Positions 8,778 to 15,781 of a stretch of DNA of 64,000 nt are shown here, piece after piece. Position 1 is the first letter of the stretch. The number at the start of each line of letters is the position of its first letter. The notes under the pieces were generated by a model that saw only the letters and a list, made by a program, of their open reading frames with translations, did not search any database and was not told the origin of the DNA. Source of the DNA: Fibrobacterales bacterium Fibro_02 (GTDB taxonomy: Bacteria; Fibrobacterota; Fibrobacteria; Fibrobacterales; Fibrobacteraceae); NCBI GenBank assembly GCA_001603905.1, contig LVAE01000015.1:1-64000 (forward strand). The letters run 5' to 3'. Both the position numbers and the translations under genes were made by a program.

Positions 8778-8841
8778 AAGGCGTAACTTTTTCTACATTT
8801 GGGCGCAAAACTTAGTGAATAATGCCTTATAGGGATTACAA

Positions 8842-11496
8842 ATGAACAAGAAAAAATTCGGCATGCGAGAACTGATTATTCTCCTCGTCATTGTTTTGTC
8901 GGCCTACACGGTATGGCCTTCTATCCAGGTTCACACCAAGAAGGGCGAAGAAAAGCAGACCTTCCTCAAGGAAAATCCGAAGGTGGGCGCAAAGTCCATC
9001 AACTTCGGCTTGGACCTTGCCGGCGGTACGGCCATTACGCTCGAAATCGACAAGTCGAACGTCAAGGGCGACGATATCAAGGACATTCAGGAACAGTCCC
9101 TCGAAATCATCCGTAACCGCGTTGACCAGTACGGTCTTTCTGAACCGCAGATTTCCCCGTCTGGCGACGACCGAATCGTGGTTGAACTGGCAGGCGTGGA
9201 TGACTCCACTGCAAAGGCTCTCGTGGGTTCGACCGCTAAGCTCGAATTCAAGATTCTGGCCGAAGCCGAAAAGTTTACGCAGGTGGTTGGCCTCATCGAC
9301 CAGTACCTGACCCGCCAGACCACCGACATTGTGGCTGACTCTGCTGCTACGGATTCCACGGCTGCGCCTGCCAAGGATTCTACGGTTGCCAAGGCTGATT
9401 CCGCCAAGGACACGACTAAGGCCCTTTCTGATGACGAACTCCTCGGTAAGGCTCCTGCCGCTGAAGTCGCTGCTACCGATTCCGCCAAGGATTCTGCTGC
9501 AGTCGAGGCTCAACCGGCATCTGAGGTCGGCGTTGCCCTTTCCGCTTACTACCTGAGTTTTGGTAACGGTGGCTTTATCGCCGAAGAAAATGTCGAAAAG
9601 GTCAAGAAGCTCCTTGCTACCGAAGGTGTGCAGAAGCTGATCCCGCGCGATGTCGCTTTCGCTTTCGGCAGCGGTCTCGAACCGGTGCAGCGCGATTCCA
9701 AGATCAAGGCTAAGCGTCTTTACCTCCTCAAGCGCCGTGCTGAAATGGCCGGTGACGATGTGGTCGATGCTCGTCCGTACCGCGTGTCTGACGGTGTGAG
9801 CGCCGGTGAAGTGGCTGTGAGCCTCAAGTTCGGTGGCATCGGTCCGAAAAAGTTCTCTGCCGTGACTGCCGCTAACATTGGCAAGCAGATGGCTATCGTG
9901 CTCGACAACCAGGTGATTTCCGCTCCGGTGATCCGCGACCGTATCCCGAACGGCGAAGCCCAGATTACGGGTCTCGACGACATGGCCGAAGCTAACCGTC
10001 TCTCCGTGGTGCTCCGCGCTGGTGCCCTGAAGGCCCCGATGAAGATTATTGAAAGCCGCAGCGTGGGTGCAACCCTCGGTGAAGAAAACATTGTGCAGGG
10101 CTTCGGTTCCGGTGCTATCGGCCTTATCCTCTGCTTGGTGTTCATGGTTGCCTACTACCGCCTCGGTGGTTTGATTGCAAGCTTCGGTATGGTGATCAAC
10201 ACCTTGGTGACCGCCGCCGTGATGTCTGTGTTTAACGCTACGTTGACCTTGCCGGGTATCGCAGGCTTTATCCTCGTGGTCGGTATGTCTCTCGACGCCA
10301 ACGTGATTATTTACGAACGTATCCGTGAAGAACTCAAGAACGGCCTGACCGCCCGCGCCGCTGTGGCCAAGGGTTACGAACGCGCCTTCGGTGCCATCTT
10401 GGACTCCAACTTGACCACCGTGCTTACCGGCCTTATCCTTTATAAGATTGGTACCGGTTCCGTGAAGGGTTTCGGGCTTACGCTTACGATCGGTATCTTG
10501 ACCTCCTTGTTCTGCGCTATCACGGTGACCCGCTCCATCTTGGATTGGAAGCTTGCCAAGCGCGACGCTACGACACTTTCGATCGGTGGCGGCTTCAAGG
10601 CTATCAACGAAGCGAACCTCCAGATCATTCCGAACCGCCGTCGTTTCGGTCTCGTTTCTGCAATCCTCATTGTTGCTTCTATCGCTTTCATTGCCATCAA
10701 GGGCTTTGACTTCAGCATCGACTTCACGGGTGGCCAGGTCTACACCGTGCAGTATCAGGATAGCGACAAGCACGAAAAGGATTTGAGCAACGCTCTCTCC
10801 GCTGCCGGCATCTCTGGCACGAAGGTCCGTACGCTCGGCGGTACTTCCGCTAACTCCTACCAGATCAGCATGCGTGCCTCTGACGACGCCCAGTTCGAAC
10901 TCAAGATGGCTCAGGCCTTCGAAAAGGCCGGTCAGAAGTGCGAAATCGTCGCTAAGGACAATGTGGGTCCGACCATCGGTAAGGAACTCCGCTTTAACGC
11001 AATCCTTTCTGTGATTCTCGCATGGCTCGGCATTCTGATTTACGTGTGGTTCCGCTTCGGTAAGTTCGGTCTCGGCTTCGGTGTCGCTGCCGTGCTCGGC
11101 CTGGTGCACGATACCGTGATTACGCTCGGCTTCATCTCTGCCTTCGGTCTTTCCTTCGACGGCGCCTTGATTGCCTCGCTCCTCACCATGATCGGTTACT
11201 CCGTGAACGACACCATCGTGAACTTCGACCGCATTCGTGAAAATACTGCCGTGTATGGTTCCAGCAACTTCGCCGAAACCATCAACAAGTCTATGAACCA
11301 GTGCTTCAGCCGTACCATGGTGACCTCTCTCACGACCTTGTTCGTGTGCGTGATCCTCGCCGTGATGGGTGGTTCTTCCATCCGCGACTTCGGCTTGGTC
11401 CAGTGCTTCGGTATCCTTATCGGTACCTACTCTTCTGTGTGCATCTGCTCTCCGATCGTTCTGTGGTGGAGCAAGCGCTTCAAGAAGGGTGTGTAA
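8842..11496 (+). CDS. secDF: Fused protein translocase subunit SecDF
   Basis: 884 residues joining SecD and SecF, which use the proton gradient to help Sec-exported proteins across the inner membrane. The SecD part shows GLDLAGGTAITLEI, the P1 domain and a TM block with SLDANVIIYERIREE. The SecF part begins near residue 600 with FSIDFTGGQVY and ends with VNDTIVNFDRIRE. Residues ~160-225 of the first periplasmic domain are an inserted low-complexity stretch of Ala, Asp, Ser, Thr and Lys, probably a disordered linker. The gene stands alone and ends at a strong terminator. Confidence 0.95.
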   Translation: MNKKKFGMRELIILLVIVLSAYTVWPSIQVHTKKGEEKQTFLKENPKVGAKSINFGLDLAGGTAITLEIDKSNVKGDDIKDIQEQSLEIIRNRVDQYGLSEPQISPSGDDRIVVELAGVDDSTAKALVGSTAKLEFKILAEAEKFTQVVGLIDQYLTRQTTDIVADSAATDSTAAPAKDSTVAKADSAKDTTKALSDDELLGKAPAAEVAATDSAKDSAAVEAQPASEVGVALSAYYLSFGNGGFIAEENVEKVKKLLATEGVQKLIPRDVAFAFGSGLEPVQRDSKIKAKRLYLLKRRAEMAGDDVVDARPYRVSDGVSAGEVAVSLKFGGIGPKKFSAVTAANIGKQMAIVLDNQVISAPVIRDRIPNGEAQITGLDDMAEANRLSVVLRAGALKAPMKIIESRSVGATLGEENIVQGFGSGAIGLILCLVFMVAYYRLGGLIASFGMVINTLVTAAVMSVFNATLTLPGIAGFILVVGMSLDANVIIYERIREELKNGLTARAAVAKGYERAFGAILDSNLTTVLTGLILYKIGTGSVKGFGLTLTIGILTSLFCAITVTRSILDWKLAKRDATTLSIGGGFKAINEANLQIIPNRRRFGLVSAILIVASIAFIAIKGFDFSIDFTGGQVYTVQYQDSDKHEKDLSNALSAAGISGTKVRTLGGTSANSYQISMRASDDAQFELKMAQAFEKAGQKCEIVAKDNVGPTIGKELRFNAILSVILAWLGILIYVWFRFGKFGLGFGVAAVLGLVHDTVITLGFISAFGLSFDGALIASLLTMIGYSVNDTIVNFDRIRENTAVYGSSNFAETINKSMNQCFSRTMVTSLTTLFVCVILAVMGGSSIRDFGLVQCFGILIGTYSSVCICSPIVLWWSKRFKKGV

Positions 11497-11523
11497 TTTA
11501 GCACTAAACTCAAAAAAAGCTTT

Positions 11524-11554
11524 AAAAAACCTCGGTTTTGCCGAGGTTTTTTTT
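11524..11554 (+). terminator. Rho-independent terminator after secDF
   Basis: Stem AAAACCTCGG-TTTT-CCGAGGTTTT is followed by more T. A-rich and T-rich flanks on both sides would allow function in either direction. Confidence 0.85.
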
Positions 11555-11586
11555 ATATTTGAAGCCGTTCGATAAAGGGGGCTCCT

Positions 11587-12522
11587 ATGCTCAAGAAGTA
11601 CTACAAGATCGAATCGGGTCGCCTCGCTAGTGCCCCGAACGAAGACAGCGCCGACATCGTCATGATGGGTTCCTTGAGCCAAGAGCAACGAAGTGTGCTC
11701 GTTAAAGAGTACGAAATCACTGAACATACGATTGCCTCCGCATTCGACTCGGACGAACTTTCCCGTATCGAGTACGACGACGATTTTACTACCATCGTGT
11801 TTAAGAAGCCGAAGAACTATTCCGCGAGTGACAACTTCCAGTTCCGCGTGGAATCTTTCGGTATCTTCATCTTCAAGGACTGGGTGCTTTTGCTCACCGA
11901 CTCCGACATCCCGGTGATGGACGAAAAGCGCTTCTCGAAGATTGACAGCCTGAACACCTTTGTGCTTCGCGTGTTGAGCTACGCCATCTTCCACTTCAAC
12001 GAACACTTGAAGATTATCAACCGCATCAACGATGAGTTGGAACAGAAGCTGCGTACGGCCATGGAAAACAAGTACCTGCTTTCGATGTTCAGCTTGAACA
12101 AGGGCTTGATTTACTACGTGAGCGCCTTGAACAGCAACGACACGCTCCTGAAAAAGTTGCAGATTGGCCGCAGCCTGAACTGGACCGAGAGCGAACGGGA
12201 ACTGCTGGACGATATCGTGATTGAAAACCGCCAGAGCCTGCAGCAAGCTGAAATCTACGCCAACATTTTGACGTCCATGATGGATGCCCGCGCAAGCGTC
12301 ATCAGCAACAACGTGAACACGCTAATGAAGAACTTGACGATCGTGACGATTTCTATTTCGCTCCCGACGTTCTTCGCAAGCTTGTTCGGCATGAACGTGA
12401 AGCTGCCCTTTGGTATGAACGGCGACGCGACGGTCGGTTCGCCGATGGCCTTCTGGCTGATTATTGCGGTGTGTATTCTCTCGGTGCTTGTCTTTATGGC
12501 CTTCTGGATGCGCCGCAAGTAA
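11587..12522 (+). CDS. corA: CorA-family divalent cation transporter
   Basis: 311 residues. A soluble N-terminal domain and long helices (residues ~120-240) lead to two C-terminal TM segments. The family signature GMN occurs at the end of TM1 ([17 protein letters not shown]), and the protein ends with basic residues (WMRRK) after TM2. CorA proteins form pentameric Mg2+ channels; related members carry Co2+, Ni2+ or Zn2+. The ATG has a good AAGGGGG ribosome site 5 bases upstream. It sits between two terminator/promoter boundaries and appears to be transcribed alone. Confidence 0.88.
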
Positions 12523-13797: not shown

Positions 13798-14550
13798 TTA
13801 CAGTATTTTCCCTAAAGCAATGATTGCGGCAGTGCGCGCACGCAGGCGCGTGTTGCCGAGATTCAGCAAGTGGACCTTCCCGTTTTGGAAGGTCTTTATT
13901 GCTTCTATTTCGCGTAGTGAGAATCCACCTTCGGGGCCTACTAACAAAGTAATCGGAGCGGCGTTCTCGTTTGCGCCCGAGCTGTCGCTGCTAGCCGATG
14001 CGTTGTCTGAAGCGCTTAAATTAAGCTGGCGTTCTCCGTCGATGTCGCAGAGAATCAAGTCGCCCTTGTAGCTTTCAAGCCACTTGTCGAATTCGACGGG
14101 GCCTTCGATTGCGGTCATCCATGCTTTCTTCGATTGCTTGAGGCTCACGAGGCTCTTGAGTTCTGCGCGGCGCACGGTCTTTTTTAAGTCGGAGTTCTTG
14201 GGCTCCTGTGAAAAGTCCGTGCGCAAGAAGATAATCTTGTCAATTTCAGTCTGCGCTGCATGGAAGACGACTTCTTCCAAGGCGTCGTCCTTAAGACAGG
14301 CAATCCCGAGCGACACCTTGGGCCGCGGGTGCTCAGCCTCGATTACCGTATCGACTCGCACCTGGCAGGCTTTCGCGTCGGCAACCTCGATGATGGCGTC
14401 GGCGTAATGTCCCAAGCCATCGGACAGCTGCAAGACATCGCCGCTACACGCCCTGCACACGCGCACGGCGTGGCTGCTCTCGTTCTCGTCAAGGGTAATG
14501 GTGCCGACTGAAATCAGCGGGCAATAAAAGCGGCTATCAGGAGTCTTCAT
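13798..14550 (-). CDS. rsmE: 16S rRNA (uracil-1498-N3)-methyltransferase
   Basis: 250 residues. RsmE methylates U1498 of 16S rRNA using SAM. An N-terminal PUA-like domain (RFYCPLISVGTITLDENESSH, HAVRVCRACSGD) is followed by a SPOUT methyltransferase domain with the knot motifs LLVGPEGGFSLREIE and LGNTRLRARTAAI. Residues ~178-195 are a Ser/Ala-rich insertion (SASDNASASSDSSGANENA) just before the knot, probably a surface loop. The start has no Shine-Dalgarno; TTATTTT lies exactly 7 bases before the ATG, suggesting a leaderless mRNA. The upstream gap holds the inverted-repeat array. Confidence 0.92.
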   Translation of the reverse strand: MKTPDSRFYCPLISVGTITLDENESSHAVRVCRACSGDVLQLSDGLGHYADAIIEVADAKACQVRVDTVIEAEHPRPKVSLGIACLKDDALEEVVFHAAQTEIDKIIFLRTDFSQEPKNSDLKKTVRRAELKSLVSLKQSKKAWMTAIEGPVEFDKWLESYKGDLILCDIDGERQLNLSASDNASASSDSSGANENAAPITLLVGPEGGFSLREIEAIKTFQNGKVHLLNLGNTRLRARTAAIIALGKIL

Positions 14551-14637: not shown

Positions 14638-14908
14638 TACCTATAAACCGAGTCAGTATAGAACTTTTATAGGTCCGACAAAGATTGTATTTTTCGACCG
14701 TACCTATAAAAAAGATAAAAACGCTTTGTTTATGGGTTCTCTTTTTATAATTTGTGAACAAACTAATATAAAAATACCTATAAAACCGTGCCGGTGAGCA
14801 GCATTTATAGGTAGCAGAATGTCTTTTATTTGTGGCTCTCTGTTTTTTGTTGCAAAATACATCCGTTTTGTACCTATAAAACAGCTGTAAGTTCTTTATT
14901 TATAGGTA
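14638..14908. repeat. Array of four 38-39 base inverted-repeat units (TACCTATAAA ... TTTATAGGTA)
   Basis: The 430-base gap 14551-14980 has no convincing gene. It holds four units, each a left arm TACCTATAAA, a spacer, and the inverted right arm. Unit 1: 14638-14647/14666-14675 (arm ends GGTC). Unit 2: 14701-14710/14729-14738 (TTTATGGGTT, a G:U-compatible change). Unit 3: 14775-14784/14804-14813. Unit 4: 14871-14880/14899-14908, whose arms extend to 12 bp. Spacers are 18, 18, 19 and 18 bases and unrelated in sequence. Units begin 63, 74 and 96 bases apart. Conserved arms, constant spacing and variable loops imply selection. Multi-site operator, RNA hairpin array or recombination sites are all possible. 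Confidence 0.8.
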
Positions 14909-14980: not shown

Positions 14981-15781
14981 ATGCAAAAGCGTTGCCCCGT
15001 AAAAGCAGTCGTATTCGATCTCGATGGAACCCTTTACCTGAGTGGTCGCCCGTACCCGAAGGCGGTCAAGACCGTCTGCCGCGTGGCAAAGCATGTGCCG
15101 GTCTACTACTTGAGTAACAATACCAGCAAGTCGCCGGTCTTCTACGAAAATCGTCTCAAGGTCATGGGCCTCCCGCTCACCGACGATGCCATTATCTCGG
15201 CGCTGTACCTGTCGCTCGATGCCATCCATGAAGAAGGCATCAAGAATGTATTCTTCTTTGCAAACCCTGAAGTCACGGAATGGTTTGCCGCACAAGATCC
15301 GACGCTCAACCTGCGCCCGGACGTTGCCGATACCGAACTCGTGCTGATTGCCTACCATAACAGCTTCGACTACCGCGAACTTTGCGAACTCTCATTCCGC
15401 GTGCAGCGCAAGATTCCGTTCTGGGTTACGCACACCGACTTTGTCTGCCCCGATGCCAATGGCCCTGTGCCTGACATCGGAAGTTTCATGGCTCTTCTCA
15501 AGACTGCTTACGGCGTAGAACCGGAACGCAGCTTCGGCAAGCCGAACCCTGCCATGCTATCGGGTCTTTTGAAAAAGTTTAAGCCCGAAGAGATTTTGTT
15601 TGTGGGCGACCGCCTGTATACCGACTTTGAACTCGCCAAGCGCAGCGGCTGCCGTTTTGTGCTTCCGCTCTGCGGCGAAACAAAACAGCAAGATTTGGAC
15701 AAGCTGATTGACAAACCCGAGTTTGTCGTCGATATGGTAAGTGATATAGACTTTGAATCATTCTTCAAGGGTGAAATCTGA
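14981..15781 (+). CDS. HAD superfamily phosphatase, NagD/phosphoglycolate phosphatase-like (HAD-IIA)
   Basis: 266 residues. Motif I FDLDGTLY has the nucleophile and acid aspartates. YYLSNNTSKS gives motif II, and the class IIA cap follows. RSFGKPNPAMLSGLL supplies the motif III lysine and ILFVGDRLYTDFELAKRSGC motif IV. Class IIA enzymes dephosphorylate small sugar or nucleotide phosphates; the substrate here is unknown. It is divergent from rsmE across the inverted-repeat array, so that array may control it. A lipoprotein gene follows 19 bases downstream, probably co-transcribed but with its own ribosome site. Confidence 0.85.
   Translation: MQKRCPVKAVVFDLDGTLYLSGRPYPKAVKTVCRVAKHVPVYYLSNNTSKSPVFYENRLKVMGLPLTDDAIISALYLSLDAIHEEGIKNVFFFANPEVTEWFAAQDPTLNLRPDVADTELVLIAYHNSFDYRELCELSFRVQRKIPFWVTHTDFVCPDANGPVPDIGSFMALLKTAYGVEPERSFGKPNPAMLSGLLKKFKPEEILFVGDRLYTDFELAKRSGCRFVLPLCGETKQQDLDKLIDKPEFVVDMVSDIDFESFFKGEI

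Follow-up and report, generated by a model that had tools for sequence, protein, structure and literature searches.

The four inverted-repeat units of the stretch studied here belong to a family of intergenic arrays which, with a probability that we put at roughly 0.78 from sequence comparison, would be platforms on which a cognate PD-(D/E)XK nuclease-like protein of ~270 amino acids binds cooperatively and bends the DNA. Seen by sequence, arrays and protein co-occur, the arms of the units are specific to protein clades, the units are phased on the DNA helix and held by purifying selection, and the array is exchanged jointly with the first ~51 codons of the gene. Together these findings point to an as yet undescribed system of DNA recognition on the chromosomes of Fibrobacter and gut clostridia.

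The array between the rsmE-like and HAD genes

The window, that is the whole 64,000-nt stretch analysed, carries its array at 14638..14908 (no strand assigned), where all four units described in the initial annotation were found, with the form TACCTATAAA-N18/19-TTTATAGGTA and loops of 18, 18, 19 and 18 nt. Unit 1 (14638..14675) joins TACCTATAAA at 14638-14647 through the 18-nt loop CCGAGTCAGTATAGAACT to TTTATAGGTC at 14666-14675, a right arm that ends in C instead of A, and its orthologue in the relative G051 (C2:149031-149066) has a mutated loop. In unit 2 (14701..14738; arms at 14701-14710 and 14729-14738), TACCTATAAA is followed by the 18-nt loop AAAGATAAAAACGCTTTG and an imperfect right arm, TTTATGGGTT, with two changes; the counterpart in G051 is a perfect ACCTATAAA/TTTATAGGT. 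Unit 3 (14775..14813; arms at 14775-14784 and 14804-14813, 19-nt loop) and unit 4 (14871..14908; arms at 14871-14880 and 14899-14908, 18-nt loop) both have the arms TACCTATAAA and TTTATAGGTA. The start-to-start spacings of 63, 74 and 96 bp are multiples of the helical repeat, and the full 20-base pattern is exact in two of the window units but never appeared when the window was shuffled 100 times with its dinucleotides kept, so that the units lie well outside what chance would give.

On the left, a 250-aa rsmE-like gene (13798..14550, minus strand; the name is that of the initial annotation) starts 88 bp from the array, and on the right a 266-aa HAD-family hydrolase-like gene lies at 14981..15781 on the plus strand. 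Of 80 Fibrobacter genomes, 78 have the HAD gene, with or without an array at that place, and both genes are mere neighbours of the array, outside the system. Elsewhere in the window, a 1136-aa open frame (8836-12246, minus strand) runs antisense to other frames and is probably a shadow ORF.

A family of dispersed arrays

That the unit has no further copy in the window, as had been noted before, is correct, yet 13 arrays occur across the source genome (G000; 3.23 Mb in 122 contigs, its sequence being read in stretches around arrays). Exact ACCTATAAA-N-TTTATAGGT units number 35 in this genome, where a control search with the pattern reversed gave 0. Together with near-perfect units they amount to ~50, grouped in the 13 arrays of 3-5 units, all of them intergenic and at a density of about one per 250 kb. 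Counts over the whole genome are far above chance and the orthologous locus has kept the arms, so that the refutation proposed in the initial annotation (counts at chance level, and arms unconserved in other strains) did not come about. Relatives have further arrays, and the same arrays were found by a named scan in Fibrobacter MAGs, in accord with the genus presumed in the initial annotation, and in rumen and gut Clostridia and Lachnospiraceae. Inside the genus exact matches are patchy, with many in G000, G051, G106, G114, G135 and G141 and none in most genomes. The FISUMP-type lipoproteins that lie near many arrays were put down to the abundance of that family, and a phage or plasmid origin was rejected, viral contigs having isolated single units only.

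Several Lachnospiraceae loci (L125, L255, L256 and L257) show very regular tandem arrays with a spacing of 75 or 53 bp, and the nearly identical loops of L125 suggest that clostridial arrays grow as their units duplicate in tandem. At L025, L026, L028 and L286, units with TACCCATAAA/TTTATGGGTA arms stand beside TACCTATAAA units and may represent an intermediate specificity.

Conservation of the arms and helical phasing

In 13 orthologous arrays compared between the source genome and G051, substitutions affected 7 of 900 arm positions (0.8%), 51 of 894 in the loops (5.7%), 80 of 1510 in the inter-unit spacers (5.3%) and 176 of 3079 in the flanks (5.7%). Between these two species the rate of change in the arms is thus 7-fold below that of loops, spacers or flanks (p=1.4e-11) and, by this comparison, purifying selection holds the arms across arrays and the loop sequence is free to drift. 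The neutrality of the loops removes the guide-RNA reading and likewise the earlier suggestion of recombination sites with exchangeable centres, given that the loops stay orthologous and drift at the rate of the flanks. It had also been claimed that the loops share no sequence, which is right in that their sequence is otherwise free but overlooks an A/T-rich centre common to them: the AT content is 0.82-0.94 at the middle positions vs ~0.5 four bases off. A second A/T rise is found 13-15 bp outside the arms.

Unit-to-unit distances in the source genome are confined to ~62-64, 74-76, 85-86, 95-97 and 105-107 bp. A set of 134 non-redundant spacings from Fibrobacter arrays is fitted best by a period of 10.6 bp (R = 0.917 vs a 99% null value of 0.244 for random spacings), and array spacing in Clostridia is very regular (73-75 or 84 bp). 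In its pattern, this combination of helical phasing and A/T centres is the imprint expected if a protein complex contacts bent DNA on one side of the helix, and RNA hairpins are not its expected source. These sequences support the earlier proposal that arms and spacers keep their lengths because of a constraint on binding, a protein reading several sites whose half-sites are ~28 bp apart.

The adjacent nuclease-like protein

When all ORFs around arrays were compared, one protein family was found to adjoin the array directly at 8 loci in Fibrobacter and Clostridia. Its members are ~270 aa long, share 36-72% identity between clades and have no match in Pfam, NCBIfam or PHROG; the gene that matches the window array lies outside the window on the plus strand at G000:C48:37543-38364 (= L038:7544-8365), right after a five-unit array. 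The C-terminal half carries a conserved PD-(D/E)XK pattern (SKSE 167-170, E187, PDF 200-202 and E216-H217-x-G219) that is kept in at least 95% of 56 proteins, E170, P200-D201 and E216-H217 included, with H replacing the usual K, and this corresponds to the superfamily motif (E ... PD ... E-x-K or variant). The C-terminus matches that of the PADLOC candidate defence protein PDC-S68 (E 1e-25) and also HEAT_CxxC_PDDEXK; the C-terminal PD-(D/E)XK domain is homologous, but these are proteins of ~1,200 aa or containing HEAT. The structure model is moderate (pLDDT 81, pTM 0.57) and its best neighbour among solved structures is the Bax1 nuclease, a weak match (E 0.046, TM 0.25); an alignment-based sequence search of solved structures returned nothing. 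Nuclease activity is thus a prediction from motif conservation and a weak fold match. Around 26 family members there is no recurrent partner gene, methylase included, syntenic housekeeping genes apart. The whole-length protein was found 0 times in the plasmid collection and once in the phage collection. The family is multi-copy: among 151 genomes sampled from the phylum, 45 contain it, with up to eight copies apiece.

A true pairing of array and protein predicts that paralogues come with arrays of other arms, and this was borne out. A fixed detector placed an array next to every one of the 34 Fibrobacter family members examined (33 upstream and 1 downstream) and found none in shuffled sequence, and the arms differ by protein clade, a dozen or more kinds being present. 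These include GGGGCATATAA, GGGGCGTATAA, TTACATACTA, ATGCATATAA, TTACGGACTA and TTACGTACTA, as well as TGGGTATAAA, TGTGGGTAAA, TGTAGGCTAA, TGCTACTAAA, GGTTACTAAA, TAGGACTAAA and others, and in all of them arms and loops are as long as before and the units are phased in the same way. Arrays of other specificities are dispersed as well, those with TTACATACT occurring in 15 genomes (five arrays in the source genome) and those with GGGGCATATA in nine. A second, independent nuclease/array pair of the source genome is located at C105:6013-6813 (L175:6013-6813) and has arms TTACATACT(A/G); its dispersed arrays lie at C30:17868, C40:3273, C44:19812 and C48:45355, with spacings of 63 and 136-148 bp.

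In Clostridia, the protein is present in 11 of 11 tested array-bearing genomes and absent in all four that have a lone chance unit, and in Fibrobacter the eight top-scoring proteins cover all six genomes with at least 12 exact TACCTATAAA units. A family member was not detected in some genomes with TACCTATAA arrays, such as G130 and G149 (both MAGs, for which incompleteness is a caveat), and GGGGCRTATAA arrays are retained where the family members known from the genome have other arms. The same arms go in Clostridia with rather distant proteins (36-44% identity), so that the arm code of the N-terminus is not a simple one. In some cases (L166/L178, L168/L179 and L189) the nuclease gene is bracketed by arrays on both sides.

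Probable exchange of specificity

The proteins of G144 (arms TACCTATAA) and G120/G121 (arms GGGGCATATAA) are sisters with full support, and their differences are found at 31 of 40 positions in aa 1-40, at 6 in aa 45-51 and at 4 in aa 52-273. At the DNA level, identity is 98% ahead of the array and 95.6% from codon ~51 on, and the block in between, made up of the array and the first ~51 codons, is unrelated. With surroundings that are near-identical, this indicates that array and N-terminal block were replaced as one cassette. Since the swap left the rest of the locus 95-98% identical, the N-terminus very probably reads the arms, residues 1-51 being the simplest reading; in the structure model they fold into a helix followed by the initial strands of a hairpin. 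Other species have at this chromosomal site a family member with yet other arms.

Units of the TACCTATAA kind number 0 in G120, 3 in G121, as a relic, and 11 in G144, where they are cognate, all three genomes being incomplete; a relaxation of the arm constraint after the specificity switch is suggestive only. Mixed arrays were seen at L303:2083-2436 and L305 (G144:C14:213733-214055), in which TACCTATAA is interleaved with GGGGCATATAA or hybrid units have one arm of each, and they look as if converted unit by unit.

Proposed mode of action

If the arrays are binding platforms, an N-terminal helix/beta-hairpin module would read one ~10-bp arm and two subunits would occupy the two inverted arms of a unit, ~28 bp apart, with the DNA bending at the A/T tract of the loop centre, and 3-5 phased units could then form one wrapped complex on a single face of the helix. 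The nuclease gene would probably have its autoregulatory operator in the array that directly precedes it, and the dispersed arrays, that of the window included, may load or hold the same protein at further places along the chromosome. The most likely benefit would be a nuclease that is kept bound, positioned and in check, and in some lineages the arrays would have multiplied in a REPIN-like manner, this being the weakest step of the scheme. If holding were the only role, strong selection on every dispersed array would be surprising. The arrays resemble iterons and the multi-site operator complexes of DNA-wrapping proteins in their helical register, A/T tracts at likely bends and probable autoregulation, but their partner has a nuclease fold, they are genome-wide, and no origin or common regulon was seen.

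Copying, gain and loss of arrays

In RUG10790, several arrays at different loci are copies of each other even with the arms masked (z up to 31), their flanks are unrelated and the homology stops near the array ends; the arrays of the source genome are weakly similar to each other (max z 5.4). The rsmE-HAD gap measures 430 bp in the source genome and G051 and mostly 30-100 bp, array-free, in relatives, and a 437-bp array segment of G144 is reduced to 7 bp in G120. These copies and empty sites imply that arrays have multiplied and have been gained or lost. With respect to insertion sequences and MITEs, the single clear junction (G120/G144, a clean empty site) has neither a target-site duplication nor a fixed element end, and at the rsmE-HAD gap the species differ too much for the array ends to be placed. 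A different GC-rich repeat, around cttcgggggcgttacggggg, fills the gap in G095, G124 and G045 (L199, L203 and L206).

It is quite possible, at somewhat less than even odds, that the arrays are non-autonomous elements copied by the nuclease or by repair of its breaks, as in a REPIN/RAYT-like mobile pair, the array-adjacent nuclease gene being the autonomous or domesticated source; this is compatible with binding and adds dispersal by mobilisation. The RUG10790 copies, the relatives that lack an array at the same place and the genes flanked by arrays on both sides all agree with it. However, the clear junction shows neither of the two marks just named, the arrays of the source genome itself are weakly similar, the arms are under selection at every site, unlike those of dead copies, and the nuclease fold by itself does not account for insertion. 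REPINs are dispersed intergenic inverted repeats with a nuclease-type gene partner, mostly vertically inherited and not on plasmids (PMC8049555; PMC3116915), and the present arrays are like them in all this, in having two inverted conserved arms with a diverse spacer and, in RUG10790, in their within-genome copies. The enzyme of REPIN/RAYT, however, is a Y1 HUH tyrosine transposase, whereas the partner here is a PD-(D/E)XK-type protein with no Y1/HUH family match, the 3-5 units keep an exact helical phase, copies are in the tens and not the hundreds, and the arms swap together with the protein N-terminus. Given these differences in enzyme fold, array geometry and cassette switching, the arrays fall outside REPIN/RAYT, although it is the closest organisation.

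Defence, regulation and RNA

Tentatively, and as something we hold possible but would not bet on, the nuclease gene and its dispersed DNA-wrapping arrays could be an undescribed, horizontally spread chromosomal system in which both co-evolve, an exchangeable array plus ~51-codon cassette switches specificity and several orthogonal copies per cell serve defence or self-marking. No published description was found in the open-access literature, and one may exist in the subscription papers and preprints outside that scope. If true, annotation would have missed an extensive family of DNA-recognition systems, each small and made of one gene, which over half of the sampled Fibrobacter genomes and also gut Clostridia possess. 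The natural cassette swaps would then show which ~51 residues set a specificity of ~10 bp, with the swap pairs as ready material for deriving a recognition code, and it would become testable why bacteria keep tens of phased platforms for a nuclease-like protein, be it for defence, mobility or chromosome organisation.

Defence or self-marking of the genome taken by itself, with the putative nuclease attacking foreign DNA and chromosomal arrays that hold, inhibit or steer it and mark the host as self, seems to us rather unlikely. It would fit a nuclease domain shared with the candidate anti-phage proteins PDC-S68 and HEAT_CxxC_PDDEXK, specificity modules that diversify fast and are swapped as cassettes, as in restriction systems, the array density of about one per 250 kb, the many paralogues per genome and their patchy distribution; against it, no methylase or other recurrent partner gene lies beside the nuclease gene. 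Type II restriction endonucleases are alike in their PD-(D/E)XK-type core, fast-changing recognition part and palindromic sites, but the lack of an adjacent methylase departs from restriction-modification, and the sites here are ~38-bp interrupted palindromes in arrays that are kept by host selection and not avoided.

The initial annotation had also considered a multi-site operator for a regulator of neighbouring genes such as rsmE and HAD, which we regard as improbable, although the geometry fits cooperative multi-site binding, the window array sits between divergent genes and the array by the nuclease gene is nearly always upstream. Multi-unit arrays occur in every gene orientation (convergent 21, divergent 10 and tandem 33), with convergent gaps twice the divergent ones, which puts many arrays off promoters; in addition, no target function common to the array neighbours was found, and the HAD gene is retained in array-free relatives.

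A multi-hairpin RNA or a set of guide RNAs in the manner of CRISPR, TIGR or sRNAs, which conserved arms and variable loops do recall, is highly improbable given that loops and flanks change at the same rate, the spacing keeps the 10.6-bp phase of DNA, an Rfam scan at a permissive threshold gave chance hits only, and the partner protein is outside all the RNA-guided nuclease families searched. TIGR-Tas (PMC12045711) and CRISPR arrays likewise place repeats with variable stretches next to a nuclease gene, but the loops here are neutral, and thus not guides, the spacing is helical and there is no Tas or Cas match. Arm combinations that would be unpaired in RNA also occur, for instance a C:C at G000:C113:2969.
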